Shown: in pieces, positions 38,501-64,000 of the stretch
Position numbering within the stretch: the first letter of the stretch is position 1
Layout of the letters: each line of letters opens with the position of its first letter
NCBI GenBank assembly: GCA_946811185.2
Contig: OX328109.1
Coordinates: 32,596,129-32,660,128, forward strand
Direction: 5' to 3'
DNA: 64,000 bases
Source: Hippopus hippopus
Lineage: Eukaryota; Mollusca; Bivalvia; Cardiida; Cardiidae
Program-made: the position numbers and the translations under genes
Notes under the pieces: generated by a model
Told to the model about the DNA's origin: nothing
The model's database searches: none
Seen by the model: only the letters and a program-made list of their open reading frames with translations

Positions 38501-39237
38501 TTTTCATGGCAAAGAATATTGAATTTTTCCCAGTTAGCTTTTTTAAAATTCCATTTTGGAATTTTCTCATCTTCTGTTTTCTCAGTTTCTTGTATAATGA
38601 TAGAAAAATGATCACTTCCATGGGAATCTTCACATACTTTCCATTCATAATCAAGGTACAAGGAAGGATGGCAGAGTGAAAGATCTATTGCTGTGAAAGA
38701 ACCTGATCCAGGATGCAGGTATGTATGTTGATTGGAATTAAATAGACATAAATTATTCTCTGCAATGAAATCTTCAATTATTTTACCTCTATCATTGGTA
38801 TCTGAACAACCCCATAATTCGCTATGTCCATTAAAATCACCACATATGATGTAAGGTTGAGGTAGTTGTAGTAAAAGGTTTTCTAAATCATTTTGATCTA
38901 TTCTTTTATTTGGTGGGATATAGATAGAGCATATTGTTATAGTCTTATTTAAAGATGCTTTTATTGCTATTGCTTGTAGATTTGTGTTTAAGTCTATCTT
39001 ACGATGAGGTATCGTAGAATGTATTATGATAGAAGAACCACCAGATGCTCTTTGGCAATCATTATGTATGTAGTGATAGGAAGAATAACTGCGAACTTCC
39101 AAGTTATCATTGGGGGTTATAAAAGTTTCTTGAAGACAACAAATTTGTGGATTTAATAAAGATAATAGAATTAGTAGTTCATTAAAGTTGGCTTTTAGAC
39201 CTCTACAATTCCATTGTAAAATTGAGTTTTGACCCAT
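35557..39237 (-). pseudogene. LINE ORF2 (endonuclease, RT, RNase H), one in-frame stop
   Basis: It reads 1,226 codons in one frame with a single TAA after codon 1103 (35926-35928). APE endonuclease: LQWNCRG near the start, GDFNGHSELWG near residue 136, GSDHFS near 210. RT: GVPQGSILSP, catalytic box YVDD near residue 667. RNase H: YTDGSK near 970, FSDSMSVLQSL, IKGNEIADQEA. The C-terminal CCHC knuckle CINCNEPLTIKHILLNC lies near 1167, downstream of the stop. The protein nicks target DNA and primes cDNA from the element's RNA. Only the C-terminal knuckle region is lost, so the copy is either recently dead or affected by one sequencing error. Confidence 0.9.
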
Positions 39238-39274
39238 TATACTTGTATATTGGGAGTTTGAATTTACTTAAAAG

Positions 39275-40448
39275 TTATTTGACTGAGGAGTCAATTTCCA
39301 ATTCCATATCTTCTAAACTTTCAAATTTATTTGCCAGCTTAACAGGATCCTGTGACCCTTTCTTCTGTCTATTTGATTGTTGTTTATCTTTTTCTTTTTT
39401 ATCTGGTTTATTTTTCTGGCTTTTATTTGGTGATGTAGTGCATGAATTAGCTCTAGAAGCTGATCTTGATCTACTAGAGTCTTTTGTTTGGTTAGATTTT
39501 GAACCTGTTTCAGATGTTTGAGGTGGTTGGACAGATGGAGACGTAGATTTCGAGGAAGGTTTAGCGCCTTGCTCAAAATCCACGGGATCATACTGTGTCC
39601 CACAAGTTCTCGTCTGAGGTTTTGCTGTTGCTGATTGAACTATCTTAGAGTACCTAGGTTCAAAAGCTGTCTCATATTGTTTTTTCGCCTCAAAGTAAGA
39701 AATCTTTCTTATTGTTTTAATTCTCATAATTTCTTTTTCTCTTTTCCAGACTTCACAGTTGGTCGATCTTGCACTGTGATCTTTACCACAATTTACGCAT
39801 TTGAAAGGTCTTTGGCAGATGCTAGATGTGTGTTTGGATTCACCACATCTATCACAGATTACTGCATCTGTGAGCTTGCAGTTGTCTTCGTGGTGCCCAA
39901 ATTTTTGACAATTAAAACAGCGCAAAGGATTTGGGATGAACTGTTCTACTGGTACTGTACGATAAAAGATTCTAATACTCTGAGGCAAAGTGGTGGTGTT
40001 AAAAGTGAGGAGTAGTGTATTGGTTTCAAGTTGAACATTATCTTTTTTTATTTTGAATCTTTTGCACGCAACAACTCCTTGCGGTGCAAGATATTCAACA
40101 ATTTTTTCCTCTGTTTCTCTTTTCAGTACTCTGTCTTTCACAATTCCTCTGGATTTGTTAAGTGAGTTGTGCTCTGAGACTGAGACTTTCAAGTTGTAAA
40201 ACTTTTTCACTTTTAACAGATTCAACTTGACTTGCTCTTGATGTTTCAACAAGTAGCAGTTCGTTTTTTAATTTTTTGACTGATTTTGGAGTGCCTATCA
40301 AACTTTCTATCTGTTTTTCAATTATAAATGGAGATAGAGATGTGATGGGCTTTGCCTCCTCACTTTTAATAACCAAGAACTTTGTGTTGTTTAAGTAAGA
40401 CGTTTCGTTTTCGTTATTCGGTCGGGGTCTTTTGTTTTGGGAAGCCAT
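39275..40448 (-). pseudogene. LINE ORF1, nucleic-acid-binding, frameshifted
   Basis: The start ATG at 40448 opens a 96-codon frame. Coding then shifts to the frame that ends at 39275, with the break near 40200-40215 in an A-rich run. The second part has three zinc knuckles: CFNCQKFGHHEDNC, CDRCGESKHTSSIC and CVNCGKDHSARSTNC, followed by a basic, Ser/Lys-rich tail. ORF1 proteins of this class coat the element RNA. ORF2 begins 37 bp downstream. Confidence 0.85.
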
Positions 40449-41650: not shown

Positions 41651-42310
41651 TTTTTATTACCAACAATCATTGCCAGAACGTCGAAATGGAGAAGCATTGA
41701 TTAGACAGTCTGATCATTAATTAACACTGATCCAGGCATAAAACATATGTTCTTAGCCTTAATTACACATATCGATTACAGGGTAGAAAACACGCTTTTT
41801 CTGCGTTTCAGCAGAAGACAAACGCATTTTTCAAAACGCTATAAATGGAGAAATAGTTGTTTGATTCCTTTCAAACTTTCAGGACCGATCGTTATTTATG
41901 TGCAGATGCAGCTTGCAAAAAATGAAATAATTTCAATGTAGGACTTGGGCGCAAGCACTATTTGAAAAAACGTTTAAGTCCGAACAGGGCTAAACGTAAA
42001 ATTAAAGCGTCCCTAGCCATTGCCAACACATTCTTAACCCTTAATTATATAAAATTAAGCACGCACGACCAAAGATCGGCAAGCACCCAGGGTGTTTGAT
42101 AAAGATTACTGATATCATATCAAACATTGACGAAGATCAGACGCCTCATTAATATTCCCTTATATATTTTTTTAATTAGTTTGTGTTTGTGTTCAATATG
42201 AAAGACAGACTAAGACTAGACGCAAATAGATCTATTTCTTCCCGGCGTCTGATCTTGGTCTTTATTTGGAAAAGTAGACCTTTCAGGCGTCTGATCTTAA
42301 TCTGTGTTTC
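41651..42310. repeat. Satellite mosaic, blocks A and B (left)
   Basis: Block A (41651-42040; AACAATCATTGCCAGAACG to CACATTCTTAACCC) recurs at 53235-53640. Block B (~42090-42310) carries AGATCAGACGCC and GGCGTCTGATCTT words shared with the 264-bp array at 55.8 kb. ORFs here are not convincing. Confidence 0.7.
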
Positions 42311-42359
42311 ATTCAGGGCCCAACAGCTCTTAAATCTAAGCCGATCTTAAAGTTCTATG

Positions 42360-42910
42360 CATCATTCTGTAGCTTAGTATGTGTATTTGAATCGCTGTAA
42401 AAGGAATTTTCGCACTACTGAAAACAGTGTGGAAAAAGTCGAAGAACAATTCTGAAAATGGGCCGACTTCTCAAAAGTCGAAAAATTCGACCTCATCAAG
42501 AAAACTTTCAGGGCCGTACAGCTCTTAAATATAAGTCGATCTTAAAGTTCTAAGCATGTTCTTGTAGCTGAGTATATGCTTTTGAATCTCCGTAAAGAGG
42601 TTTTTGGCAGTACTGAAAATAGTGTGGAAAAAGTCGAGAAACCATTCCAAAAATGGGCCTATTTCTCAAAAGTCGAAAAATTCGACTTCATCAAGAAACC
42701 TTTTCAGGGCCCTACAGCTCTTAAATGTAAGTCGATCTTAAAGTTTTATGCATCATTCTGTAGCTTAGTATGTTTTTTTGAATTTCCGTAATAGCTTTTT
42801 GGCACTACTGAAAACAGTGTGGAAAAAGTCGAAAAAACAATCCGAAAATGGGCCGATTTCTGAAAAGTCGAAAAATTCGACCTCACCAAGAAACTTTTTC
42901 ACGGCCCTAT
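42360..42910 (+). repeat. 196-bp satellite, three monomers (left block)
   Basis: Monomers are marked by GTGTGGAAAAAGTCGA near 42428, 42622 and 42817 (period 194-195 bp). Each contains the inverted repeat GTCGAAAAATTCGAC and CAGGGCCCTACAGCTCTTAA. The same monomer builds the large array at 56.9-58.7 kb. Confidence 0.9.
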
Positions 42911-42924
42911 CAATTATTAGTCGG

Positions 42925-44160
42925 TTTAACTCTTTACAACCCTAACTAAGAATTATTTTCCAAAAAAAAAAACTTTGTGGGAAAAGGAGAAATTAGACCT
43001 GGAAGGAAATAGGGATTAGCAAAGGAATGCAATCACTTTACGAGGTGCGAACAAACAGGAATTTCGGCGACTTCCCTGAAGGTGTGACAAATTAACAACA
43101 TCTGGCAGGTATTGACAAACCTTAAAGAGCGGAAGAAGAATGCAAAAATGGACAAATAAGTCCTTTTCAAAAAAAACTATTTTCTAAGTCAAAAAATTCC
43201 AGGGCAATAAATGTCTTAAATCTAGGCAATTACAATATTAATGAAATTTGTAATCTTGAAAAATCCGTTTTTCTTTTATTTGCCCCGCTATTTTAAAGTT
43301 AAAGCATTTCCCTATGCCGATCCCTGCTGATCTCAATCTTATCAATTACAACACTCGCAAAGTCATAGTAATATAGGTTAAAATATTATTTTGGATTAAG
43401 AATTCGTCTTTGATCCTTTTGCACGGTTGCCGATCAATCTGATTAATCACATTCATGGACTGAGATCAGAATAGAATGATTAAGTCGGAATGGGGTATGC
43501 TCGCCAGTTTAATCATTGCTCACGATGTAAAGACTAGATCGGAATAAAAAACATACGAGAACGATGTGAAAAGGCTTGGCTTTTGTTACTTATAAATTTC
43601 ATTTCAATATCTCAATAAATAAATGAAATAAGAGAAGGAAATCAGTGCGGCAGGTGGAAAAAGTCCAAAATAATTTGGTTTTCATCCGGTGTGGTGTTAC
43701 AAATCTCCGCTGATCTCAATCTAATCAATAAGGAGACTCGATAATTTACAGCTCTATAGGTGGAAATATTATTTTAGATTAAGAATTCGTATTTTTTTCT
43801 TTTGTAACGCCGCCGATAAATCTGATTATACATATTCATGGACTGAGATCAGAATTGGGAAATTAAGTCGGAAGGGGGGGGTACGCTTGCCAGTTTAATC
43901 AATGCTCACATGTAAAGGTATTCATTCTTTGAAGGCAGTGTAAGGACATCGGAAATGGAGAGCATTGATTAGACGGTCTGATCTTTAATGAGAGCATTGA
44001 TTAGACGGTCTGATCTTTAATTAATATCGATCTAAGAAAATGCCTTGATTGCATGTATCGATTATCGGCAAAACATTCCAACCTACCTGTAACTAACAGT
44101 CATGGGTGACAGGTGTGAATTTGAAATTAGCACTCTAGATGCCAATCTGATGTGCTCAGC
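42925..44160. repeat. Satellite mosaic, blocks D-G (left)
   Basis: A block with a MITE-core word (GTGGGAAAAGGAGAAATTAG at ~42977) and AATTTCGGCGACTTC matches 54.45-54.78 kb. Two blocks with GCTGATCTCAATCT and ACTGAGATCAGAAT (~43330-43500 and ~43710-43880) match 54.2 and 54.85-55.03 kb. A block with CATTCTTTGAAGGCA (~43920) matches 54.31 kb. Confidence 0.7.
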
Positions 44161-44404
44161 ATCGTCTTTGACACATGCCACTCAACATGTCAAAAGTAGA
44201 CTTAAGCATTTATAAACCAGGGTTTTTTCAGCATTGTATTCTTGGGTTTTTTTTTCTTATAGTACCCAATAATAACATAGTATACACTGAAGGTCAAGCG
44301 TTTTGCGGCGGCCCAGTGTCAAATAGATCCATGCATTTCACAGACATTACATATATAATTTAGATAAATATATTTCATTGCTCCAGTAGAGACTTTTTGT
44401 CAAA

Positions 44405-46185
44405 ATGTCTGTTAATCTAAAACAGTATGGTGAACCTATCAATCCCGGACAGGCCCACCTGCTCTCCAACAATACATGGACATTTAAGGCCTTTGTTAGG
44501 CCTATTGGGAGAGGAGATGGCTTTAAGAAAACATCTCCTCTGACCCTATCACGAGGCATTAGCAGGGACCTGTCCGGTTTTGCGAAAAAAACAGTTATTC
44601 TAAAAGATGGCGGTCTTTTGTTGGAGGTGTGCTCAGCTCAAATGTTGAGCAAATTATTACATATTACCCCCCTTGTCGTCTGTGGTGTGCGCTGCTTTGC
44701 TTACACCCCGGACGACATGGTTACGGTCAGGGGGGTAATACATAATATTCCTCTGGATTATAGTCCAGAGGAATTGGTCCTAAATCTGGAGGCACAGGTT
44801 AAATCCAAAAACATCTTCATAATGAAAGCTTCCAGAATTTTAAATCGTTTCGGAGCACCGACGGCGGCTGTTGCCCTGATGTTTTGCCAGAGAGTGTCAG
44901 GGTGGCGGACTCTGATCTTTTTATCCCTGTAGAGGCTTTTATTGCTCCGCCGCTTCGGTGCTTCCGATGTCAGAAATACGGGCACACCTCCAAGAAATGC
45001 CCAAATGAAACAACCTGTGCCCGATGTGCTGGTCCACATAACAGCAGGCTATGCAATTCAAGCGTAGTCTGTTGTACTAACTGCCAGAATGGTCACACGG
45101 CGCGTTCCAGTCGGTGTTCCGTATACCTGTGGGCGTCCAAAATACAACAGTATAAGAACGCTCACGGGTGTTCCTGGGCACTTGCTGAGCAGGCGTGTGG
45201 TCCATGCCCATATAGTAGTGCTGCGTCTGTCCCCCAACATAATTTGTCTGGTCCAAACCCCTCCTCTTTTCCCCAAGGACCCCGATTTGCCTTTAAGGTA
45301 AACCATACAGAAAAAGTCAGGACCCTTCAATATATCAACAAAAATCACATAACAGAAATTGCCCATACTTGTCTTGATCGACAAAAAGTCATGGCCCCAG
45401 AAGTTTCCACAGAAATTACAGAACAAAAATCGGTAGGAAAATCTAAAACTCCTCCTATATCTCCAATAAATATTGTGAAGACCACGCCTACCAATGTAAC
45501 CATGATTTTGGAAACTTCATCTTGCACCTCTATTTCCCGTACCTCCCCTTCAAGTAAAGTAATGAAAAGGGAAAGAAGCAGCACTCCTGATAAAAAAGGG
45601 GGGGAACCTTCCCTCACCGACGTGACCGCAATGGACTCATCGTTGGGAGAGGTTTCAACCCCCTCTGGCAAACAAATGCAAAGCCCCATAATGCCAGAAA
45701 AACAAGACGTATCCACCCAAGTGGAATCCATAGGAAAAAAAGACAAATCTGTTGAAACAGAACCTTTTTTAGATACAAACTTTTTACAAAAATTTAATTT
45801 AGATCTACTTTTGGAAAAAATGAAAATTCTAGTTATGGATTCCACTATAAAAAATGGAAATTATAGCCAAAATTACTTAAGAAATAAATTTTTGTCATCG
45901 TTTATCTCCTCATTTCAAAAAGAGTTAATAACCCTAAAACCAAAGTCTGAGGATGATAATCAGGGTGGATGCATCCCTGCTCCTGTCCCAGAGAAACCAG
46001 CACGTTGGACAACACCAAAAAAAGTGTCGAGGCCATCAAGACCATCCAGCCTCCCAAAACCTGTGGGACGTAGGCTGAAGGGCCTGAACTCACCGCTTAA
46101 AACGGCGGTCGGGTCCAGGCATTTCAGCCTGGGATCCCCTTTCTTACTCCGCGGAGTTAAAAAGCAGATTTTCAAACCTTATTAA
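44405..46185 (+). pseudogene. LINE ORF1, nucleic-acid-binding, frameshifted
   Basis: The first frame (44405-44932) has an RRM-like or pre-knuckle region (VRGVIHNIPLDYSPEELV). The second frame (44884-46185) carries the knuckles CFRCQKYGHTSKKC, CARCAGPHNSRLC and CTNCQNGHTARSSRC and then a long Ser/Thr/Lys-rich tail. A frame change between 44884 and 44932 separates them. ORF1 protein would bind element RNA. Confidence 0.85.
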
Positions 46186-46192
46186 TTTCACC

Positions 46193-49100
46193 ATGGACAA
46201 AATAATCCAAATTCTAAGTTTCAATGCATGTGGGCTTTCGGCCCACACCATGACTGAATTAAAACGATTCCTCGATCTAAATAACTTTGATATCATATGT
46301 ATCCAGGAAACTAAACTTAACGAAAACACAACTAGAAATATTCCTGGGTACACATTTGAAAACAAAATCTTTAAAAATAATAACGGTAACTTTTGTGGCG
46401 GTTTGGGTACCTTTTTCAGAAAAGGACTAAATTTTAGAAATTTAAATGTAAACAATGCTAGGGATTCAAATGGGGAGATCAAAATTGAGACCCAAGCTTT
46501 CGAAATCTACTCCTCAGATACTCCTTACATTTTGGCAAATATCTATTCAAGAGGGTGTGACCTTGAATCTCTAAACAATTTAAGTTCACTTATTTCGGCA
46601 TCGAGTGAACTTAAAGAACTCGTGATTACTGGTGACTTTAATTCACACCATCCCTTATGGGGCGCCCTGAGGTCAGACTCCCATGGAAGAGAAGTCTTTG
46701 ACTGGGTCGAAAAAAATGATCTTGTACTACTCAACGATGGGAGTCCCACCAGGTTAGATCCCGCAAGAGGCACATTTTCGTGCCTCGATCTAACTTTCAC
46801 GAGTCCAAAATTGGCAAATAGTATGTTTTGGCAAGTAGTTAATGATTCTTGGAGTTCGGACCACTTCCCAATCCACATATCAGTTCTAAATTCTAGTCCA
46901 AATTCTAAAGAAAATGACTCTGAAGAAAAATTTATCTATGAAAAAGCGGATTGGGACTCTTTTAAAAGATTGTGTGAGGATATCTCCCTAGCAGATGTTT
47001 ACGACGAGGACATCGATTCTTTCAATAAAAAAATAACCTCTACCTTTTTGTCCATGGCGAAACGCTCGATTCCGGTTAAAAAGAAACATCTATCAAAAAA
47101 AAAGATGGTCCCCTGGTGGAGCGATTCCTGTGAAAGTGCAGTCAGGGAGAGAAAAAAGGCCCTTAATAATCTGAAAAGAAACCCCTGTGAAGTCAACCGG
47201 GTCACCTACCAAAATAAAACTTTTTTGGCTAAATCAGTTGTCCTAGAGTTTAAAAAACAAAATTGGAAAGAATTCTGCGATTCCTGTGTTCACGACCCGA
47301 AAAATTCTAAAGATTTTTGGCAAAAGATCCGCAGAATAAAAGGAAAATCATATGCTCCTGTCCCTGTTCTCGCTTCAAATGGTCAACATTCGATTAGTCC
47401 CCTGGACAAGGCCAATACGCTTGTCTGACATTATTCTAATGTTTCCAGTGAAACAAATGTAGAGCCTGAGGTTTTGGCCTATCAAAAAAAGTTTGAAACA
47501 GACCATTTCGAAGAAATTAACTCTCCTGGTGATACATTAAATCCAGATCTTATCAATTTTGACTTCACACTTAAAGAACTAAAAGACTATCAATAGCAGG
47601 AGGGATTCTGCCTCGGGACTTGACAAAATTTCATATACCATGTTCAAGAATATGTCCGATACCACACTGGACCTTTGGCTTTTCTTTTTTAACAAAATTT
47701 GGAAAGAGGGCAGTTATCCTCGGGACTGGAAGCTCGCCTGTGTGGTCCCACTACAAAAGAAAAACAAGGATCCAGCTGATCCCAAATCTTATAGACCTAT
47801 AAGCCTTACCTCCCACCCTGGGAAATTGCTAGAGGGGATGGTTAAGGCCCGTTTGGAACGTTATCTTGAATCTAAAAATATAATAAATCCCTTTCAATCT
47901 GGCTTCAGAAAGGGCAGATCGACATTAGATCAGTTGGTTAGGTTACAACATGACGTCCTCTATGCTAAAAATAGAGGCCGTTCTGTTGTAGCAATATTTC
48001 TTGACCTCGAGGCCGCTTTCGACCTTGCATGGCACTCGGGGATTCTTTACAAACTTAAGAAATGTGGGATTACCGGACGATGCTTTCAATATGTTAGGGC
48101 CTTTTTGCTGGATAGAAAAATTACTGTTAAGGTGGGGGATACTCTCTCGGAAGCTGAAACGCTGACAAGGGGTACCCCCCAAGGCGCCATTTTATCCCCT
48201 TTACTGTTTTCTCTTTTGGTCAACGATCTCCCTGCTGTAACTGAGGGGACAGGGATGGTTATCAGCCAGTTCGCCGATGACTCCGGCGGCTGGCTAGTGG
48301 GATCCAATGGTCAAACCCTGCAACGTAAGGCACAGGCAGGGCTGGATTCCATTTGGCGCTGGTCCCAAGAATGGGGCTTTAAAATTTCTAAAACTAAAAC
48401 TGTAGGGATTATTTTCGGAAATAAAAATCTAAAAGAACTGGACGTATATTTAGGCGGCACAAAAATTAATTTTGAGGAGACAGTAACATTTTTGGGTATG
48501 CTTTTGGATCGGAAATTCACGTTACTGCCTCACATAAAAACTTTAATGACAAAGTGACAGAGAGACTTAAATCTCATGAGAATGTTAAGGGGCACCGATT
48601 TTGGCTCGGACAAAAATTCGCTCCTTCTTCTCTATAAGTCCCTAATACGTCCAAAGATTGACTACGGTGCCATAGTCTATGCATATGCCTCGACATCGGC
48701 ACTTAAAATGTTAGATAATATCCAGCGAAAGGCCCTAATAATAGCCCTGAGGGCACTGCCGTCTACCCCCTCTATTTATCTTGAACTGGAAGCCGGAATC
48801 GAGCCTTTAACTCTGCGGAGGGAGGCTCAAATGGTAAGGTACTGGGCGCGGATTTCAAGCAAGCCAAGCAACCCGGTGAACGATATCATTGGGAAGGGGT
48901 TCTTTTATAAAAATAAATATAAAAACCCAGTTCTTCCTTTTGGGGCCAAAACCGCCAATTTGGTGGAGGAACACCTTCCCAATGTTAGCAGTGTAGCGGA
49001 CTCCAGATCGCGCTTTGCGGCGCCGTGGCTCCTCAAAGCTCCCCAAGTCGACACATCCCTTAGCTCGAAATTTACGAAAAATGACCCTCCTTCACAAATT

Positions 49101-50006
49101 TTGGCAATTACGGAGGAGCATGTAAATTCGAGCTATGCTGAGCACCTAAAAATTTTCACTGACGGAAGTAAAAATGAAAATTCAGCAGTTTCCGCGGCAA
49201 TGGTTATACCAGCCCTTAAGGTTAAAACGTCAAAAAGACTCAGCGACAGGTTATCTATATATGCCGCGGAACTGACTGCTATACAATATGCACTAAACTG
49301 GACACTGGTCAATAAACCACACAAAGTTGCTATTCTATCTGATTCTCTTTCGGCCCTCCAATCACTCTCTTTAAGGAATAGCAACTCTCGGCCTGATCTA
49401 CTAGAAAATATTTTGTCCATTTACGATCAGTGCCATCTGAATAACTCGGAGGTTACCTTTGTGTGGTGTCCAGCTCATGTCGGTTTTGTGGGAAATGAGG
49501 TAGCGGACGATGCGGCGAGGCGCGCTCTGGAGGGATCCGTTGGAGATAAAATACCCCTGGCAACCACTGAAGTATATTCCATTTTGAAAACTTCAATTAA
49601 AAAAAAGTGGTCAAAGGGGCTGGCGGACAGACTTAAGAGCCAGCCCTTTTATGGAAATGGAGTGAGTTTCAGACCGCCACACAGTTATTCAACCTGTAAA
49701 AGGGTGGATAAATGTGTGACGCGTCTGAGGCTGGGCTATAATCTATTGCCAGGGAGTCTAGGGCACCACATAATTGGGGGTTCGGCCATTTGCCCCACCT
49801 GTGGTGTCCGTAACTCCACGGAGCATTTTCTGCTGGACTGCAGCGTCCACCTTGTTGCGAGGCAGAAACTCTCAAGTGCAATTTTTCGGGAGGACGTAGA
49901 CTTCAATATTCAAAATATTTTATATCCATCTAAAGCTCTACAGTCCTCCACTTTCAAAGCACTTGAGACATATTTATTGGACTGTCAGATGACCGACAAG
50001 ATCTAG
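46193..50006 (+). pseudogene. LINE ORF2 (endonuclease, RT, RNase H), two TGA stops and a frameshift
   Basis: Endonuclease: LSFNACGLSA at the start, GDFNSHHPLWG near 46630, SSDHFPIH near 46855. A TGA at 47426 and a frame change near 47590 separate it from RT: SYRPISLTSHPGKLLEGMV, GTPQGAILSPLLF, catalytic box FADD near 48275. A TGA at 48555-48557 interrupts the thumb region. RNase H follows (FTDGSK near 49154, LSDSLSALQSL, WCPAHVGFVGNEVADDAA), then a C-terminal knuckle CPTCGVRNSTEHFLLDC. The frames are otherwise intact. This copy cannot make a full protein. Confidence 0.9.
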
Positions 50007-50299
50007 GTCCAAATTCTGTACTAACTAGGGCACGCCTTGATAATTTAAAAATTTTCAATCTTTCATTTATATATACTTTTCTTTCATACCAAGGCGTTCC
50101 CAAATAAATCCGCCCCAGCTCAGTTCCTATTTCTTGTCTGTAATTTCAGAGAGCTCTCATGACCGTATTTTTTTTCTTTCTTCCTTTTCCTCATTTTTTC
50201 ACCTACCAACTTTCATATTGGTATGTTTTTTTTTTTTGTTTTTTTTTTTACCTGTATTTTTTTCTAAAAATTTGTACAGCCCATTGTGTTCATACACAG

Positions 50300-50530
50300 T
50301 TAAACCCATCGCCACACAATTTCTACTTTTTACGTCCCTGATGGAAGGGCCTAGTGGGAGCAGGGTGGGAAAAGGAGAAAAAAGCTGGTAACCAGCGTTT
50401 TCTCCTTTTCCCACAGTGTTTTCTGCCCTTTCCGGATCGGATTTCAACTTTTCAGTCGCCTTTGTTTTGTCGTCTGAGGAGGTTTTCGGTTTGGGCCGGT
50501 CTAGGATTTTGACGTGTGGTAAGGGGTTAG
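50300..50530 (+). repeat. TTAA MITE, GC-richer copy
   Basis: TTAAACCCATCGCCACACAA at the left, GTGTGGTAAGGGGTTAG at the right. The core GGTGGGAAAAGGAGAAAA with GCTGGTAACCAGC and its complement is well kept. The arms contain several A/T to G/C changes relative to the other copies. Confidence 0.85.
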
Positions 50531-51580
50531 ATCTTGTAATATATAACACAGGCATTACTTTTTATAATATATGTTATACCGCCATATACTAAGTATTTGG
50601 GGGTTATACAGGTCATCAAGCCAAACATGGGTGTTCCCCTATCTACAAGGGATTTTTACATTTTTTGCTCAACCCATGCTGGTTTTTGTTTACGTTTTTG
50701 GTGACTAGGTATAGAAAATTTCTTTAATCTCATTTTTTAAGCCCTTTGATTAATATCTCTAGCTGTTAAGTGATCGTCAGTCAGTTCGCCACGGATCTGA
50801 TCCGGGACGATAATTGATTTTTTAAGCAATTTTTTACTGACACGGGGGCTTTTATATATGTTCGCTCCGAGTCCCCGTAGTCCTACCTTCTAGGGTTGTA
50901 TTTTTGGTGAAAGTTTATCTTTTTCCTTTTATGGCAGCTTTTACTCCTTGTGGGACCTGCTGTGGATAGGGCGGCAGGGAAAGAACTAGCACCCCAGTAG
51001 TTTTGGCTTTATGCCCCTACTGAGTGGTGTCGTCCTGATCGCCCTGCACAGCAGGCAGGACTGACGGTCGCTTCACAGTTTTTATGTGTATATTTTTGTC
51101 TAGCATAATTTTTAGAGAGCTCTCTGAGATATCTTGGCCTCGACACGATATGAATTCAAATTTTTGTCATCAGTAAAATATGGGAATAATATATTATTAA
51201 TTAATAATAAAATAGTACAACAAAATGACCTTTTTATAAGACAATTATAGGAGGCGCCAACGCTGTAGAATCCAAGACTGTCGCTAAAAGAAAATAGACA
51301 AGTCATAATTAAAACGAGACCGGCAACGCTCAATGAGTTATATACTTTGTAAATATATATGTATATATACATATTTTTTAATTAACATTTTTAAGGTGGT
51401 CCTGAAGGGGTTCGTTGTGGCTGGCCATTGATATCTTTTACTTGTTTTCTTATTTGGGTTTTTTAAACCATTGAGCATTGCCGTTAGAACAAAATCTAAT
51501 TTAATAGAAAAATTATTTATAGTCTCACAATAATATAGAGAAAAAAAAAAAAAAAACCAATAGCTGCTCGCCAAATGGCT
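50531..51580. other. Probable LINE 3' UTR remainder and unassigned sequence
   Basis: No credible ORF. GC-richer text with AGCAGGCAGGACTGACGG near 51050, an AT dinucleotide tract near 51350-51375 and a poly-A run near 51541-51556. Whether this belongs to the LINE upstream or to the SGNH locus downstream is undecided. Confidence 0.35.
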
Positions 51581-51787
51581 TTATGCCGCATGGCGAGGGT
51601 AAAAAATCCCCCTCCTACACAGCTGAGCAACCCGGTGAAGGACCCTGGTTGCTAGGGGGGATAACTGGGTCAGCTACCAGGAGGAGGGGGGGAAAAATGA
51701 TGATGAAAAATGATGATGATGCATTCTTTACATTGCATTCACAGAGGCAAAAGAGAAAGGAAGATTCTTCAATTTCAACTCAACAAG

Positions 51788-52366
51788 ATGAAGACTGTCA
51801 TTTATGGAGACTCACACACCAGACATCTTAAAGCCTGGAAGATCTTTGCGAAAGGAGGACGTCGTCTTCAGACATGCCATTCTGATGCTGATTGGAACGC
51901 CTTTTTAGAAGCTTGCAAAGAAGCAGACGTCGTGATCATTGTAATTGGATCGAACGACATAGACAAGTGGCTCAGGGTTTCGCCATCACCAAAGCATGCA
52001 GCCATGGCTATAGTGCAGCAGCTGCGCTGGTTACGGAAGGCGACGGAGCACGATAATGTGCACGTCGTCGATCTGTGGCGGCGCAGCTCAGAGAGTCCAG
52101 ATTTCTCTACGACTCGAAGTGGTATCAACCGATGTCTCGGATTGAATACCATTCGGGTTGCGAAGAAATTAAAGGAGAAGCATGTTTCTGGCGATGGTGT
52201 CCATCTGAATCCCAGGGGCCGATCCATCGTGCAGGCCGCAATTGATGGATGTGTGGCTGCAGCGCCCCGTGTCCGGCATAGACCATGCCAGACACAGTTC
52301 ACATGCACGCTGAATTCTCCCCCCAAGGAGACTGTCTTCGTCAGAACATTAAACTGCCCTTTTTAG
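51788..52366 (+). CDS. SGNH/GDSL-hydrolase-like protein (192 codons)
   Basis: A single uninterrupted exon from ATG (51788) to TAG (52364-52366). It shows SGNH hallmarks: VIYGDSHTRHL near residue 4 (the Ser block), IGSNDIDKW near residue 57 (the Asn block) and SGDGVHLNPRGR near residue 138 (the Asp-x-x-His block). The Gly block is less clear. SGNH enzymes hydrolyse esters and acetyl groups. The protein is short and lacks a signal peptide, so it is likely cytosolic or part of a mobile element; related domains occur in ORFs of CR1-type LINEs and of some tyrosine-recombinase retrotransposons (family knowledge). An upstream ATG at 51710 is in frame but adds a low-complexity start, so I prefer 51788. 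The ORF is GC-richer than its surroundings. Three histone-type hairpins follow. Confidence 0.6.
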   Translation: MKTVIYGDSHTRHLKAWKIFAKGGRRLQTCHSDADWNAFLEACKEADVVIIVIGSNDIDKWLRVSPSPKHAAMAIVQQLRWLRKATEHDNVHVVDLWRRSSESPDFSTTRSGINRCLGLNTIRVAKKLKEKHVSGDGVHLNPRGRSIVQAAIDGCVAAAPRVRHRPCQTQFTCTLNSPPKETVFVRTLNCPF

Positions 52367-55030: not shown

Positions 55031-55330
55031 TTAAGTCGTCAAGAAACCTTTTCAGGGCCCTACAACTCTTAAATATGAGCCGATTTTAAAGTTCTATGCA
55101 TCATTCTGTAGCTGAGTATGTCTTTTTTAATCGCCGTTAAATGTTTTTTGGCACTACTGAAAACAGTGTGGAAAAAGTAGAAAAACCATTCCAAAAACGA
55201 GCCGATTTCTCAAAGTTGAAAAATTCGACCTCATCAAGAAAAATTTTCAGTGCCCTACAACTCTTAAATTTAAGCAGATCTTAAAGTTTTATGCATCATT
55301 GTGTAGCTGAGAAAGCATATTTGAAACTCT
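55030..55330 (+). repeat. 196-bp satellite, 1.5 monomers
   Basis: CAGGGCCCTACAACTCTTAA, GTGTGGAAAAAGTAGA and the TTGAAAAATTCGACC box identify the monomer. It is separated from the main array by ~1.5 kb. Confidence 0.8.
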
Positions 55331-55680
55331 GTTCCTGCCTCTTAAGCGAATCTTTATACCTGTATTTTCTGCTTTCTTAAATGATTGTTTTTGGTGAGGT
55401 TTTTCATACTGAAATTTAGTTTATTGTGTGTTTTTTGTGTTTGTGCATTTTTATCGTATGTTTGTGTCTTCTGTGCATTTTTTGTTTGTGTGTTCTGTGC
55501 CTTGTTAGTCTCTGCATTGTGTGTTTTTCTGAGTGTTTGTGCATTCGTCTTTGGATTTAACGTTTTAAGACAATAGAAGAAAGAAGACCCCTGTAAACCT
55601 GAAGAGAAGAAGAAAATACTGAACTAAGATGGCAAACAAGAGGTTGGTAAAAAATTTAATTTTGTCATTTTCACGGTTTT
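55331..55680. other. Unassigned, TTTGTGT-rich stretch
   Basis: A 63-codon ORF at 55385-55576 is made mostly of TTTTTTGTGTTTGTG-like repeats that translate as Cys/Phe/Val. I regard it as simple sequence, not a gene. Confidence 0.5.
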
Positions 55681-55819
55681 TCCCGGTTTCTGATCCTGGC
55701 CTTGATTTTGGAAGAGTATCTTTCAGGCATCTGATCTTAATGTGTTAGACGTCTGATCTTGGTCTGTGCTTTTTTTTTGTTATCAATACTAATCGTAATT
55801 ATTCGTTAACAAACCTAGA

Positions 55820-56580
55820 CTAAGATCAGACGCCTGAATACTGTCCCGTAGTTGTTCAGTATGAAACACAGACAAAGATCAGACGTCAACGAAGTAAAAG
55901 AAGAGATTGAGATAATTGGAGGCAGAGTTGTGAAAAGTCTGATCTTGGCCTTCATCTGGGAGAATAGTATCTTTCAGGCGTCTGATCTTAATCTGTGTTT
56001 GATTATGATTAGTAATATGACATCAAACATTGACGAAGATCAGACGCCTGATTAATATTCCCCTATAATTTAACAAACCTAGACTGAGATCAGACACCTG
56101 AATACTGTCCCCTAGTTATTCAGTATGAAACACAGACAAAGATCAGACGTGAACGAAGTAAAGGAAGAGATTGAGAAAATTGGAGGCAGAGTTGTGAAAA
56201 GTCTGATCTTGGCCTTCATCTGGGAGAATGGTATCTTTCAGCCATCTGATCTTAATCTGTGTTTGATAATGATAACTATTATAATATCAAACATTGACGA
56301 AGATCAGACGCCTGATTAGTATTCCCTTACAATTTAACAAACCTAGACTAAGATCAGACGCCTGAATCCTGTCCCCTAGTTATTCAGTATAAAACACAGA
56401 CAAAGATCAGACGTCAACGAAGTAAAGGAAGAGATTGAGATAATTGCAGGCAGAGTTGTGAAAAGTCTATTCTTGGCCTTCATCTGGGAAAATAGTAACC
56501 TGTATGCGTCTGATCTTAATCTATGTTTCATAATGATTAATATAGTTATTCAACAAACTTAGACGAGAATTGACAGTCAG
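55820..56580 (+). repeat. 264-bp tandem repeat, three units
   Basis: ATGAAACACAGACAAAGATC starts units at 55861 and 56125, with a variant at 56389 (period 264 bp). Each unit holds about five copies of AGATCAGACG or its complement CGTCTGATCT in alternating orientation. ORFs of 64-67 codons across the units are by-products of the repeat. Confidence 0.85.
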
Positions 56581-56589
56581 ATCAGCCGA

Positions 56590-58860
56590 TCTTAAAGTTT
56601 TATGCATTATTGTGTAGCTTAAAAACCCTATTTGAAACTCTGTTAAAAGGTTTTAAGCATCCCTTAAAACAGTATACAAAAAGCAGGCATTTAGCAAAGA
56701 CTAGTTATTGAAAGGCAAGCCGAAAAAATCCGCAGACAAGGACATATTTTTGTATTTTTCCGCACGATTTTTACGCTTGCCTCTCGAAACCCTTTCACCC
56801 TATTTCCTGTGCTTAATTTTAGTCCGATCCCAATGTTTTAAATACTGAATTGTAGCCTAGGAAGCCTATTTGAAACTCTGTTAAAAGATTTTTAGCATGA
56901 ATGAAAACAGTGTGGAAAAAGTCGAAAAACCATTCCGAAAATGGGCCAAAGTCTCAAAAGTCGAAAAATTCGACCTCTTCAAGAAACCTTTTCAAGGCCC
57001 TACAGCTCTTAAATATAAGCCGATCTTAAAGTTCTATGCATCATTTTTTAGCTGAGAATGTTTACTTGAATCCCTGTAAAAAGTTCTTTGGCACTACTGA
57101 AAACAGTGTGGAAAAAGTCGAAAAACCATTCTGAAAAGGGGCCGAGTTCTCAAAAGTCGAAAAATTTGACCTCTTCAAGAAAGCTTTTCAGGGCCCTACA
57201 GCTCTTAAATATAAGCCGATCTTAATGTACTATGCATCATTTTTAAGCTGAGAATGTCTATTTGAATCCCTGTAAAAAGATCTTTGGCACTACTGAAAAC
57301 ATTGTGGAAAAAGACCAAAAAACATTCCGAAAATGGTCCTATTTCTCAAAAGTCGAAATATTCGACCTCTTCAAGAAACCTTTTCAAGGACCTACAGCTC
57401 TTAAATATTAGCCGATCTTAAAGTTCTATGCATCATTTTTTAGCTGAGAATGTCTACTTGAATCCCTGTAAAAAAATTTTTGGCACTACTGAAAACAGTG
57501 TGGAAAAAGTCGAAAAACCATTCCAAAAACGAGCCGATTTCTCAAAGTCGAAAATTTCGACCTCATCAAGACACCTTCTCAAGCCCCTACAGCTCTTAAA
57601 TATAAGCCGATCTTAAAGTTCTATGCATTATTGTGTAGCTGAGAAACCCTATTTGAAACTCTGTTAAAAGGTTTTAAGCATCCCTGAAAACAGTATAGAA
57701 AAAACAGGCATTTAGCAAAGACTACTTATTGAAAGGCAAGCCGAAAAAATCCGCCGACAAGGACATATTTTTGTATTTTTCCGCACGATTTTTACGCTTG
57801 CCTCTCGAAACCCTTTCACCCTATTTCCTGTGCTTAATTTTAGTCCGATCGCAATGTTTTAAATACTGAATTGTAGCCTAGGAAGCCTATTTGAAACTCT
57901 GTTAAAAGATTTTTAGCAGGAATGAAAACAGTGTGGAAAAAGTCGAAAAAACATTCCGAAAATGGGCCGAGTTCTCAAAAGTCGAAAAATTCGACCGAAT
58001 CAAGAAACCTTTTCAGGGCCCTACAGCTCTTAAATATAAGCCGATCTTAATGTACTATGCATCATTTTTAAGCTGAGAATGTCTATTTGAATCCCTGTAA
58101 AAAGTTCTTTGGCACTACTGAAAACAGTGTGGAAAAAGTCGAAAAACCATTCTGAAAAGGGGCCGAGTTCTCAAAAGTCGAAAAATTCGACCTCTTCAAG
58201 AAAACTTTTCAGGGCCCTACAGCTCTTAAATATAAGCCGATCTTAATGTACTATGCATCATTTTAAAGCTGAGAATGTCTATTTGAATCCCTGTAAAAAG
58301 ATCTTTGGCACTACTGAAAACATTGTGGAAAAAGTCGAAAAAACATTCCGAAAATGGTCCGATTTCTCAAAAGTCGAAATATTCGACGTCTTCAAGAAAC
58401 CTTTTCAAGGACCTACAGCTCTTAAATATAAGCCGATCTTAATGTACTATGCATCATTTTAATGCTGAGAATGTCTATTTGAATCCCTGTAAAAAGATCT
58501 TTGGCACTACTGACAACATTGTGGAAAAAGTCCAAAAAACATTCCGAAAATGGTCCGATTTCTCAAAAGTCGAAATATTCGACGTCTTCAAGAAACCTTT
58601 TCAAGGACTTACAGCTCTTAAATATAAGCCGATCTTAAAGTTCTATGCATTATTGTGTAGCTGAGAAACCCTATTTGAAACTCTGTTAAAAGGTTTTACG
58701 CATCCCTGAAAACAGTATAGAAAAAGCAGGCATTTAGCAATGACTACTTATTGAAAGGCAAGCCGAAAAAATCCGCCGACAAGGACATATTTTTGTATTT
58801 TTCCGCACGATTTTGACGCTTGCTTCTCGAAACCCTTTGGCCCTATTTCCTGTCCTTAGT
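56590..58860 (+). repeat. 196-bp satellite in a ~1,021-bp higher-order repeat
   Basis: Monomer landmarks (GTGTGGAAAAAG or TTGTGGAAAAAG) lie at 56910, 57106, 57302, 57498, then 57931, 58127, 58323 and 58519: exact 196-bp steps, four monomers per group. A spacer with GGCAAGCCGAAAAAATCCGC and its partial complement ACGCTTGCCTCTCG separates the groups (~56710, 57725, 58755). Group period is 1,021 bp. The third spacer runs directly into the recombinase locus at ~58.9 kb. Confidence 0.9.
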
Positions 58861-59039
58861 TTATCTGAAAATAAAATAGCTTTTTTTGAGATTGGCATAA
58901 TGAATGCGGTAAAATGGGAAATAATACCCGACAATTAATTCCCGCGTTTTTGATTTCAAAAGTTTAGATATTTGACACTATCCCTCCCCCTCCACCGAGC
59001 AATGACTGTCTTAATGCTCTTTATTTTGTTTCGTTGTAG

Positions 59040-59964
59040 TGCACCAAAGTCACGTCCCTACTGCCAAATATCATTTGACAGAGTTGACCATCATATCTTG
59101 AACTGTCATGCTGAAATTCCCGTGGAGCAGAGAATTCGCGACAATATAACTGAAAAGAAACGGGCCAATATGGCCGCCCAATCATCATTTGACTTGTTGG
59201 ATTTGAAGACAAAATTTCCTGATACCTACCTTGACGTCGCCGAACTAATGGTCCAAGCTGCCCATCTTCCTGTTTATCTCACTAGAACTGATAGATATGT
59301 GGAGAATTTGACTGTCGAACAAATTAGAAAGTGGAGAATAAGACCCAGCACCCAGCCAGGTTTGCTAAAAGGTACAGATCCTCCTAAAAGAATCGGCTTC
59401 AAGACCAAGGTTAAACCCGTTGGAGAATTACCTGTCGTACCGTTGCCAGTAGCTGCAGCACCGAGACGACGATTGAATGCAGATGAAGCCATCGCCGAAG
59501 AAGTTGCAGCCAAAAGAAGAAAAACTTCCCCTCCTTCGCCGCAACCCGGCCCCAGTCAACAAGATGCTGCTGCACCAATATCACCCGTGCAGTCTGCTAT
59601 GACTGAAACCATTGGAACCGAACCAGACCAACCTGATATTATATCACCCCAATCAACGATCAGCAAAGATGCCATTAGACCTACATCAGCAAATAGACGA
59701 CGCATACTAGACAGCGACTCTGAAGCTGAAGAAAAACCTGAAGAATCAGCAGAGCCTTTACCAGTTAGTCGTTTTTTGCCACTGCGAACCACCAACAACG
59801 ATACAGTTGAGGTCAAATCACCACCTGAGCCTGTTGCATCGACCAGCAAAGTCCCAGATTTAGCACCATCTGACACCAGTGATAGCGATTCTGAAAGGGA
59901 TGAGCCACAACCGGAAACCCAGAGAAACAAAGTCCAAGCAATCGGACAAGTACAAACTGTATAA
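59040..59964 (+). pseudogene. N-terminal region of the recombinase-SET protein
   Basis: The open frame runs from ~58972 with no reliable start. An in-frame ATG at 59002 gives a hydrophobic start that looks like the pyrimidine tract of an acceptor (TTTCGTTGTAG, exon from 59040), so an upstream exon is possible. The first segment SRPYCQISFDRVDHHILNCH resembles a C2H2 finger lacking one cysteine. A basic motif (AAKRRKT, a likely nuclear signal) and a long Pro/Ser/Glu-rich disordered stretch (SDSEAEEKPEE, DTSDSDSERDE) follow. The frame is replaced by the recombinase frame within the 86-bp overlap 59879-59964. It is probably the N-terminus of one protein with the next two features. Confidence 0.6.
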
Positions 59965-61084
59965 TATGGACGTGTCGGCTACAGAAAGAGACACGCTTGT
60001 CGGGAAAGCGAAAATTTTGAAACTCCTGAAAAGCCATTACACGTCGTTGGCAGAGGATAGCACAGCAATAAACAAAACCATGAACAACAATCTATCTATA
60101 GCGTGTAAAGTCATGAAATTCTGCGCACCAAACCACCGAGTAGATGGCTTCCGTTGGAAACACCTTAACGCCGGAAATGTTGACGCACTGGTTACAATAT
60201 TACAACACAAGATACAAATAGCACCTAACTACATTGCGAACTACCTGAAGGTAATAAACCACCTTCTTAATACTGTGATGAAAGACCAAGAATACTGCAA
60301 TGCCAACCCACAAGCCAGCAATAACAGAAACGTCTGCGCCATGAGGGTAAAAGAACTCCAAAAAGCCAATGCTAAACACATTAGCAAAAGGAGAAACGAG
60401 CAGATAGCTACAGACATGTATCAAGGATCTTCAAATTTCCAAGACTACCTTTTAAGGGTCTTCAAAGCCTTCGAAGCATCGAAGAAAGACTGCAAAGCCT
60501 TGTTGGACAAAGCATCGACTAAGAAGTTAGATGCCAGAGAAGTGAGCATGGCGAATGGGTTTTTCAATTTGTTGAGCCTTACCTGTGGTAACCGGCCCCT
60601 TGTTTTCAAGAATATGAAGGCCAACGTGTACAAAATGGCCCGAAAGAACCCCAAAACCTCTGAAGACGGATCAGTTTACTACTATCTAGCTACAGCAGAG
60701 CACAAGACCGGTGCACAATATGTTGCATTTATATACTTGACTGAAGAGCTGATGGGAATGCTGAGAGACTATTATCAGCATGTGAGAAATCCCCTACCCT
60801 CAAACAAGGAATTTCTCTTTATCAACAGCAATGGAAAGCCGATTCACAATGCCTCCAACGATTTGACCAGCTTTTTGGAGAAGTACGATAAAGAACTAAG
60901 TAAAATCCTTAGTCACACCTTATTTCGTAAGATTCTGACTACTCTAGGAAGTTGCTACCTAAACAAAGAGAAACAACAGATAGTTCATGGCATGTTGACA
61001 CATTCAGAGGCCACAGCAAACAAACACTACACTGGGGATGGACGAATCTGTACCCCACAAACTTGGAATACCACTTATCGGTGA
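59879..61084 (+). pseudogene. Tyrosine recombinase domain
   Basis: About 390 residues, helical and intronless. An N-terminal core-binding-like part (to ~60500) is followed by the catalytic fold with the first arginine in LTCGNRPLVFKNMK (~60590), HTLFRKILTT (~60915, the H-x-x-R region, with spacing one residue off the canonical form), and MLTHSEATANKHYTG, whose Tyr (61028-61030) is the expected nucleophile. Tyrosine recombinases cut and rejoin DNA through a 3'-phosphotyrosine; eukaryotic ones occur in Crypton, DIRS and Ngaro elements. The frame stops soon after the nucleophile, and coding continues in the next frame (from 61038) with DESVPHKLGIPLIGEILQ. A frame change between ~61031 and 61084 therefore joins it to the SET part. 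No reverse transcriptase is nearby, which favours a Crypton-like DNA element. Confidence 0.75.
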
Positions 61085-62875
61085 AATCCTTCAAAAGTGC
61101 AGCCATAATGCAGGCGTCGACGTGACATCCTATGTGTCAGAGAGTGCACAGCTTACCAAGGAAGTCTCAGATAGTGCCAAAGCTGAGGTTCTGTCTCTTT
61201 TTGATCGACTGGACAGAGCTATATTTACTGCTCAGGAGCCTACATCCCAACAGATTTCTGCTCAATCATCGTCATCAGCACCAGAACAGTCAACAACGAC
61301 ACAAAGAATTCCGCCAGCAATGTTAGAAAGAATAGCAGCAATTACATCATCATCATAATCATCATCATCGTCATCAGCACCAGAACAGTCAACAGCCACA
61401 CAAAGTATTCCACGAGCAGTGACAGCAAGAATTGCAGCAATTACATCATCATCATCATCATCATCAGAATCGTCATCATCTGATTCACAAGACGACACTT
61501 GTACAGGCAAAAAAACGTATGAGAAGAAAATAAGAGAGCAATTGGGTCCCATTCAGAGCAACACCAGACTTCCAACAAGAGATGACATTCGAGAAGTCAT
61601 TAAGAAACTCGAGATCCCAGAGGAAGAAGACCATAAAAAGCTGATAAAATTCGCACAGTCTTACGTCACTTACACCAGAGACATGTGCCGAGCAAAAGAA
61701 ATTGCCGAAGCCCTGAAAAGAGTAAATGATCCATTAAAATTCAGCAAAGCAATTGACAATTATATGCTACAAATGAACTGGTCCAAAAATGTCAAAACAA
61801 CCAACGCAGCGTACAAGCTTATGATAACCGCACACCAAAAAAAGACAACTAAAAAGACAGTAGATATTGAACTAAGCCGAAGAACCCCCCCACTGGAACC
61901 GTCAATCAGAACGCAAGTGAATGATCAAAATTGGCCATGTGTTGTTATAAAAAAAGTAGATGAAGTAAAAGGCCGCGGTGCATTCGCTGCTAAAGACATA
62001 TCAAAAGGACAGGTAGTTTGTGATTACCACGGGGAAATTATTGATCAAGCAACAGGTGATTATAGGTATGAAGAACTATATAAAGACCGTGATGACAATA
62101 AATACATGTTGAAATTTGGTTACAAAGGACAGTATTATTATAATAATGAATAATGAATAGCGTTTTAAGGCCCGTCGACAACTTAGGTCATATTGGGCGC
62201 ACTTACTTAGTAAACAATAATGCAAGGTGAAAATAACATACATGTGCAACAACATAAGACAAACATGATAAATGAGGAATGGACGAAACACAAAATGATG
62301 CCCCTTTTGTCGCCTTTTACGACATGCATGCTGTCACTTTTGTTCCGCCAGATGAAATGGCAGATGTGACGATCGCGGGACTGCAGTGGTTTATTCTTAT
62401 ACCCCCGATTAAACCACACGGGGTCCCACAGGCCAATTGATTCCCATTCCAAACCCTATTTACATCGAGAAAAAAATACAGGATTTGGAATAAGAACTAC
62501 CCAGCCTGCTGCAATCCTACGAATTACGAGGAAAGCAGCCGTTTGTCTCTAATTTTAGTCGCCTTCTACGACATGCCATAGAGAAAGGCCGAGGTCCTAT
62601 TCTATAAATTAAAAAAACCCCGGGACCCCACGGGGAGACAGTATTATTACTGTGACGCCGTAAAACCATGTGAGTGCCACCCCGGAAAGACAATTAAAGG
62701 TCGGTTTTTTAACCATAGCAGGAAAGACACTAATATACAAATGAAAGTTAAAGGAGATGTGGACAGAATAGTGCTATTAATGGAAGCGTCCAAAGACATC
62801 AAAGCAGGATCAGAGCTGCTCTGGGATTACGGCTGCCGTTTGGACCCGAGATCAGACAGGGAGTCATGGATGTGA
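61038..62875 (+). pseudogene. Linker and KMT5A-like SET methyltransferase domain, split by an insertion
   Basis: The frame from 61038 passes a Ser/Gln-rich linker, partly duplicated (61252-61340 and 61360-61450), with one TAA at 61356-61358 inside a TCA repeat. It continues through a basic helical region to a SET domain: VKGRGAFAAKDISKGQVVCD, YHGEII, YMLKFGYKGQYYY. A 496-bp element interrupts at 62140. The domain resumes at 62639 with YYYCDAV, GRFFNHSRKD (the N-H-S box) and ELLWDYG (the catalytic-Tyr box), ending at TGA 62873-62875. The SAM site (GRG), NHS and WDYG are all present. The sequence is closest in plan to KMT5A/SET8, the H4K20 monomethylase. Host kmt5a genes are not fused to recombinases, so this is an element-borne copy. 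Confidence 0.8.
62141..62636 (-). mobile_element. 496-bp retroelement insertion with 13-bp target duplication
   Basis: The flanks GACAGTATTATTA at 62128-62140 and 62637-62649 are identical. Read on the minus strand, the insert starts CCCCGTGGGGTCCCGGGG, contains two GTCGTA-A/G-AAGGCGAC words (near 62315 and 62568) and ends with the LINE-like tail (complement of GTTTTAAGGCCCGTCGACAA) plus ATTCATT repeats. That combination suggests a SINE or a 5'-truncated LINE that shares the 3' tail of the LINEs in this window. Confidence 0.8.
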
Positions 62876-62929: not shown

Positions 62930-64000
62930 AGTCTAACAACTGACAATTTTTAAGACGGGTCCGAAATCAATGCTTTTGCAGACGAAAATAATATCTAAAC
63001 TAAAATTCAAAAAGTTTTTTGGGATGGTTTGGAAACAGTGTGGGAAAGGTAGAAAATGCTGATTACCAGCAATGACTGCTTTTCCTACAATGCTTTCATT
63101 TGCTACTATTTCAGGGTTGTTATTGTTCAGGATTGTGCAGTAAAGAATTAAAGTAAACAACACTAAAACACAGAGCCAAAGTTAAATATCGAAGTCACAT
63201 ATACATAGCCACAGAAATGAATTACGGACTGATGGCCCTGTGATTAAATATGCGCTAAGCATGGAGATTTCACTTGGTCCAGGTCTTAAACTTGAGAACG
63301 CAATCACATAAACACAACTTCCTAATTTAAGTAACGCAATTACATATTAGAACTCTCTAACAACTGACAAATATTTAAGACGGGTCGAAAATCAATGCTT
63401 TTGCAGACGAAAAAAATAAATTTTAACTAAAATTGGAACGGTTTGAAAATATTGTGGGAAAAGTAGAAAATGCTGGTTACCAGCAATGACTCCTTTCCCC
63501 ACAATGTTTTTCACAAGGCTTCTATTTCAGGGTTGTTAAAGGTCCAGATTGTGCGGTAAAGAATTAATGTAAACACCACTTTAACATAATCAGAGCCAAA
63601 GTTAAATAACGCAAACACATGTGCATAGCCACCGAATTGAATTACGGACTGATGGCCCTGTGATTAAACATGCTCTAAGCATGGAGATTTCACTTGGCCC
63701 ATGTCTTAAACTTAAGAACGCAATCACATAAACACAGATTCAGTAACGCATTCACATATACATAGCCCCCGAAATCAAATACGGACTGATGGCCCTGTGA
63801 TTAAACATGCGCTAAGCATGGAGATTTCACTTGGCCCAGGTCTTGAACTTAAGAACGCAATCACATATACACAACTTCCTACTTTAAGTAACGCAATTAC
63901 ATATTAGAACTCTCTAACAACTGACAAATATTAAAACGGGTCCAAAATCAATGCTTTTGCAGACGAAAAAAATAAATACTAACTAAAATTCAGAGTCTTA
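62930..64000 (+). repeat. Tandem array built from a diverged MITE (~423-bp unit)
   Basis: AACTGACAA followed by AAGACGGGTCC or CGGGTCG and AATCAATGCTTTTGCAGACG recurs at about 62938, 63361 and 63920. Each unit contains a MITE core (GGGAAA-G-GTAGAAAATGCTG with TTACCAGCAATGACT) and a non-MITE part with GGACTGATGGCCCTGTGATT and AAGCATGGAGATTTCACTTG. The second unit has an extra ~136-bp internal duplication. The array continues past the window end. Confidence 0.8.

Follow-up and report, generated by a model that had tools for sequence, protein, structure and literature searches.

We analysed 64,000 nucleotides of the 1.07-Gb genome of the bivalve Hippopus hippopus (C14:32596129-32660128; hereafter, the window). 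On the + strand, between ~58.97 and 62.87 kb of this stretch, lies a locus that is very probably a decayed copy of a DNA-type mobile element. The main protein of this element would carry, in a single chain, a zinc finger, a tyrosine recombinase (YR), a helical region and a KMT5A-type SET domain. Hence, we refer to the YR-SET element. An earlier reading of the window by a model, the original prediction, placed YR and a KMT5A-like SET domain in one mobile-element protein. The fusion is real and no accident of the window locus. In relatives, the zinc-finger-like motif, YR, helical region and KMT5A-type SET domain follow one another in one open frame.

Relatives encode YR and SET in one chain

Intact paralogues with both domains in one open reading frame (ORF), for which the original prediction suggested a search, were found in the H. 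hippopus genome and beyond. At locus L024 (C6), an uninterrupted frame of 1,086 codons lies between two stops. A single stop breaks the L010 frame, which otherwise covers everything from the zinc finger through SET. L009 spans the same parts and shifts frame once, late in the reading. Outside this genome, the relatives are P0030 (1,043 amino acids), P0031 (1,042 amino acids) and P0007 (1,009 amino acids), and ray-finned fish proteins have the same architecture. We distinguish lineage A, that of the window; lineage B (L019-L021, L025 and an array on C17); lineage C (L022-L024); and lineage D (P0007 and P0030-P0032).

Pfam SET is matched by 22 of the 25 members of our alignment A1, and phage-integrase SAM-like models are matched weakly by 11/25 and 9/25. 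In alignment A3, which holds five divergent members, the invariants are R125, EHKT, R234, H259, Y268 and CDYHG. There are exceptions to the architecture; several of the fish models are truncated, and P0029 places the SET piece first. A search with the lineage C protein gave no protein match at E ≤ 0.001. None of 28 pattern-matching stretches in viral contigs, nor of 53 in prokaryote contigs, was confirmed as a YR-SET relative.

P0007 is filed under a metagenome-assembled genome of Sedimenticola sp., on a 5.4-kb contig. The protein is a YR-SET protein of animal type, and the contig is most likely host DNA contaminating the bacterial assembly.

The recombinase half has a tyrosine recombinase fold

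The window recombinase has no Pfam match, and a PDB sequence search returned nothing at E ≤ 10. Hence, we folded it using an alignment with 24 relatives. The AlphaFold model has a predicted local distance difference test score (pLDDT) of 83.9 and a predicted template-modelling score (pTM) of 0.63. Tyrosine recombinases head the VIA-align list of this model (XerA, 13.1; XerH, 11.9; IntI, 10.7; Cre, ~10.5; lambda Int, 9.8), and type IB topoisomerases and FLP come next. The top matches cover ~250 residues with a root-mean-square deviation (rmsd) of 9-12, because the two YR domains are set differently. For matches to the catalytic part, such as an S. aureus integrase, the rmsd is 4.1 across 170 residues. 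The top three Foldseek matches are XerA (E 0.004-0.009), none being at or below 0.001. Helical models may attain such Z scores without kinship. The leading rows all belong to a single superfamily, with which the catalytic residues are consistent, and on this basis the model clearly predicts a two-domain member of the tyrosine recombinase superfamily. All five catalytic residues (R, K, R, H and Tyr) are present in the window copy; the canonical HxxR histidine is absent. Thus, the original identification of the recombinase finds no match among sequence families, yet is borne out by the fold.

The SET half is of the KMT5A class

Both halves of the window SET domain exceed the Pfam cut-off, with KMT5A as the best PDB match. 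By sequence and by fold, the element SET is closest to KMT5A, also known as SET8, and the match exceeds that to any other SET class by a wide margin (6.3e-16, versus 1.6e-5 for SETMAR). The structural match list of the P0030 model is filled by SET domains. Element SETs differ from KMT5A in their fusion to YR, in a CxCH motif (23 of 24) and at the position of KMT5A Tyr334, numbered by alignment to KMT5A. Here, the 24 members compared have Phe (19), Trp (3) or Tyr (2). We take Tyr334 to direct KMT5A towards mono-methylation. The original prediction was of an H4K20-type SET domain; the class stands, whilst the product may differ in the 22/24 members with Phe or Trp.

The window copy is decayed

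The window copy belongs to a repeat family with several lineages and has decayed. All coding parts are on the + strand but spread over three frames, which change near 59.95 and 61.03 kb. The N-terminal piece (58972..59949) agrees with L009 up to residue 326 and includes the zinc-finger-like motif (59050-59109), whose first Cys, present in L009, is Arg in the window copy. A pyrimidine-AG before 59040 may allow an upstream exon, as a candidate only. The YR, placed by the AlphaFold model and fold comparison, is a 401-codon frame (59948..61033). Codons for its catalytic residues start at 60593 (R), 60704 (K), 60926 (R), 61001 (H) and 61028 (Y).

The linker (61038..61490) contains a serine-rich 99-bp tandem repeat, interrupted by a TAA at 61356. 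It is followed by a conserved helical region ahead of SET (61491..61919), assigned from sequence and from helices at the corresponding place of the P0030 model. The SET domain, located using Pfam and PDB matches, is split into a first half (61920..62140; KGRG at 61968 and CDYHG at 62019) and a second half (62638..62872; CxCH at 62669, NHS at 62711 and WDYG at 62822). Between them is a 497-bp insert (62141..62637, no strand given) that is missing from L010. A 12-bp duplication (62129-62140 and 62638-62649) bounds this insert, which we take to be like a short interspersed element. With these frame changes, the TAA and the insert, one continuous reading is true of the relatives and not of the window copy. 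Hence, the shared strand and serine-rich linker of the original prediction stand, and its uninterrupted reading does not. That the copy is dead, and that the element has partner genes, had been missed.

YR and SET are linked at dispersed copies

A genome search with the window recombinase gave 40 rows: nine close matches (57-100% identity), a set of fragments and more distant second-tier matches (24-31%). Adjacent rows were merged by hand, giving at least 32 recombinase loci and, from 28 rows, at least 27 SET loci. A SET half lies downstream on the same strand at 23 of the 32 recombinase loci within 10 kb, and at 22 within 3.3 kb. Four of the 27 SET loci lack a recombinase. The loci are not independent, since a single tandem array (C17:5.64-5.83 Mb) accounts for nine of the 32. 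Each 14,946-bp unit carries a lineage B YR-SET reading, and adjacent units are 99.8% identical. Near-identical copies are dispersed over several chromosomes, and many copies are broken. Thus, copies, for which the original prediction also suggested looking, are many, and YR and SET are linked at most of them.

Two candidate structural features were set aside. At the left edge of a lineage C copy (L031:29 / L044:9529), an eight-base inverted repeat with a 6-base spacer resembles a recombinase core site; it was not used because it occurs in one copy among those compared. The second, an inverted repeat of 282 bp at L010, seems to reflect a local rearrangement.

Both domains are constrained

We compared rates of non-synonymous and synonymous change (dN/dS). 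For L010/L011, ratios were 0.117 (YR) and 0.174 (SET), and for L021/L019 they were 0.225 and 0.196. The pair L025/L019, which is not independent of L021/L019, gave 0.219 and 0.199. Distant lineage A pairs (L010 or L011 with L013-L016) gave no ratio because dS was saturated. Between nearly identical copies with few changes, nine YR ratios were 0.51-1.34 and six SET ratios 0-0.98, the rest being undefined. These values fit selection during activity, with similar constraint on SET and YR, and, more weakly for the young copies, looser decay later. Since both domains are constrained between subfamilies, SET appears to be functional within the element. Trees of the two domains both group A with D (0.951 for YR, 0.857 for SET) and both with C (0.986 and 0.865). 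Placement of lineage B differs between the trees and is weak in that of SET. The YR tree omits P0017, P0025 and P0028, which have no Tyr motif, and draws on none of the remaining hits.

Partner genes and a satellite accompany some lineages

An SGNH/GDSL hydrolase gene (51707..52366, + strand; PF00657, 26.1 bits, cut-off 23.6) lies upstream of the window copy and is a partner of lineage A. All five close genome copies of the hydrolase (82-100% identity) have a lineage A recombinase at a distance of 5.0-19.7 kb. Order and strand are kept in four; the C17 copy is inverted. Three weak hydrolase rows are far from lineage A copies. Chance proximity is ~4e-4 per hydrolase copy (11 lineage A loci, 1.07 Gb), the copies being duplicates and so not independent.

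Lineage B is accompanied by a Baculo_F-like gene (PF12259, 8.2e-6 and 25.1 bits against a cut-off of 24.1, on a 165-amino acid piece). The ORFs lie near lineage B recombinases in L032-L033 (C17:5756500-5776300) and at L021:1481-2387. In the 14,946-bp C17 unit, the gene is ~4 kb upstream on the opposite strand. A genome search gave 41 rows, with the strong rows outside the C17 cluster forming six loci. By our reading of the rows, four of these are <6 kb from a second-tier recombinase, one is 18 kb away and one has none. Three of the four near loci (C6, C10 and C17 at 4.0 Mb) are related by recent copying. Rough dN/dS values are 0.15 and 0.32 for the Baculo_F-like pieces and 0.43 for the hydrolase. 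The links of the hydrolase to lineage A and of the Baculo_F-like gene to lineage B are new here. ORF lists for lineage C showed no convincing partner gene.

Tandem units of a 196-bp satellite occur on the + strand at 42312-42909, within the left flank of the lineage A element, and at 55036..58726 (55036-55333 and an array at 56866-58726); the latter may belong either to the element or to its target. The satellite is present in 10 of the 17 loci L009-L025, or 12 when longer flanks are included for L023 and L024, counts that have no random-locus control. It also flanks lineages whose recombinases are ~26% identical. L011 and L016-L019 have no satellite within the stretches examined. Being absent from the C17 lineage B unit, the satellite was rejected as a fixed part of every element.

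Alternative origins

Several observations weigh against interpreting the locus as a copy of a YR mobile element that writes chromatin. Nine of the 32 recombinase loci have no SET, and copy-to-copy comparison yielded no defined element ends. The nucleophilic Tyr is replaced by Asn in two fish proteins, and P0005 and P0006 stop ahead of SET. NHS is retained in 18 of 24 SETs and in none of the four lineage D members (P0007, P0030, P0031 and P0032); with NHS altered and frames open, their methyltransferase activity may be changed or lost. The SET tree does not clearly separate human KMT5A from the element SETs. The young-copy dN/dS ratios are based on few changes, and the link to the satellite may reflect accumulation alone.

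We considered other origins. At least lineage B, beside its Baculo_F-like gene, might be viral or virus-like. The PF12259 match near lineage B copies is above cut-off, but the adjacent 522-amino acid piece has no Pfam match. By eye, no capsid, polymerase or packaging gene was noticed in the lineage B unit. Across L009-L025 and the window, tblastn matches to the Baculo_F-like gene fall in L021 only, with none in the lineage A and C stretches. Together with the lack of a YR-SET relative among the viral contigs scanned, this makes a viral origin improbable.

A host KMT5A-like gene family could instead have acquired the remains of a recombinase and multiplied by duplication, a domestication resembling that of SETMAR. 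Segmental duplication does happen, as the lineage B array shows, and catalytic residues are lost in some fish members. Conversely, recombinase residues are conserved across lineages, near-identical copies are dispersed on several chromosomes, many copies are broken and YR is under constraint as strong as that on SET. We consider a host gene family quite unlikely.

Similarly unlikely is a DIRS/Ngaro-order retrotransposon in which the reverse transcriptase was overlooked or has disappeared. These elements share YR, and the available part of PMC9210276 describes an SGNH hydrolase ORF following YR in amphibian Ngaro-like elements. However, the lineage A hydrolase is upstream of YR rather than after it, and SET is fused to YR. 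By eye, with no profile search made, neither reverse transcriptase nor RNase H was noticed in the ORF lists, which cover the surroundings of the open lineage C copy, the lineage B unit and the window between hydrolase and YR-SET.

Chance adjacency of two unrelated fragments, suggested by the three frames, the stop and the insert of the window copy, is ruled out by uninterrupted single-frame relatives in this genome and elsewhere and by the same order at 23/32 loci.

A possible role in chromatin

YR enzymes act at short core sites by strand breakage and joining. Taking the locus as derived from a YR mobile element, we infer mobility, recombination, methylation, its product and a benefit as follows. 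The zinc finger and YR would direct the protein to recombination sites in the element, where YR would excise and integrate the element by DNA breakage and rejoining. SET would methylate nearby nucleosomes around the bound protein, at H4K20 or a similar lysine. The methylation state would probably be above the mono-methyl of KMT5A, because Phe replaces Tyr334 in most of the members compared. The mark could lodge copies in compact chromatin, for instance satellite-rich stretches, limiting damage and detection. Satellite at many loci fits such lodging, and also mere accumulation. The roles raised in the original prediction, namely marking of donor or target chromatin, timing of integration to the cell cycle and protection from silencing, are candidates. 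The chromatin-lodging role of SET is tentative; the explanation as a whole, from element identity through mechanism to lodging, is moderately probable.

A broader proposal, which we regard as rather doubtful, is an old animal superfamily of chromatin-writing YR elements. Its autonomous copies would encode ZnF-YR-SET. SET, with Phe334 giving di- or tri-methylation, would package donor and target sites, and partner genes would be recruited lineage by lineage, the SGNH hydrolase by one and the Baculo_F-like gene by another. The Baculo_F-like glycoprotein, if such, could let its lineage pass between cells or species; similar passage has reportedly been proposed for fusogen-bearing Mavericks of worms.

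Histone marks are a host means of silencing mobile DNA. A site-specific recombinase and a chromatin writer make a natural pairing, and a selected YR-methyltransferase fusion across divergent lineages would, if true, be mobile DNA writing its own chromatin. Whether elements manage their own chromatin becomes testable, and fish genes listed merely as uncharacterized SET-domain proteins would be explained.

Comparison with known systems

Like Cryptons, the YR-SET element encodes YR, and no reverse transcriptase was noticed by eye. Unlike Cryptons, it adds SET and a zinc finger, and YR is not its sole recognizable domain. The available part of PMC4157794 describes DNA YR elements as having the YR domain only. 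A genome search for DUF3504 (PF12012) gave 53 rows, 51 above cut-off and none at a YR-SET locus. PF12012 is not among the families listed (25 of 32) for P0002 or the 25 A1 members. Using hhalign, lineages A-D matched the fish recombinases with a probability of 99.96% (E 8e-39). Against four low-diversity Crypton readings the probability was 1.8% or less (SET control, 0.5%); the Crypton profile is thin, so that this shows distance rather than separate origin. Crypton membership via DUF3504 was rejected on the genome search and the hhalign comparison, and the YR is not detectably close to Crypton DUF3504.

SETMAR also joins SET to a transposon enzyme. According to the available part of PMC8994322, that enzyme is a mariner transposase in a single co-opted primate gene; the YR-SET enzyme is YR by fold, has many copies and carries a SET nearer KMT5A. 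Oomycete Helentrons are mobile elements with a SET gene, but in what was available of PMC4067079 this is a separate Clr4-like ORF in a rolling-circle element. No YR-SET element appears in the literature searched, including the available part of PMC9406493; Repbase Reports and most subscription journals lay outside its scope, and an earlier notice there is possible.

Flanking sequences

Lineage A copies are similar over ~41.65-66.2 kb in window numbering, and similarity to the C11 copy extends to ~66.2 kb, past the window end. The left flank (41651..44235, + strand) is 98.7% identical to the stretch adjoining the C3 copy. In the C3, C11 and C17 copies, this block abuts the hydrolase; thus, the window's element is interrupted by a retrotransposon of 7.5 kb. 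This non-LTR (long terminal repeat) retrotransposon (44236..51720, + strand), missing from those three copies, is a later insertion and not an element part. It has a 5-bp overlap at the junction and, by eye, ORFs for zinc-knuckle, endonuclease and reverse transcriptase. Downstream of SET are + strand tandem arrays of 420- and 137-bp units (62932..63873). A further non-LTR retrotransposon reading, mostly open (1,113 and 330 codons), is on the - strand at 35926-40267.
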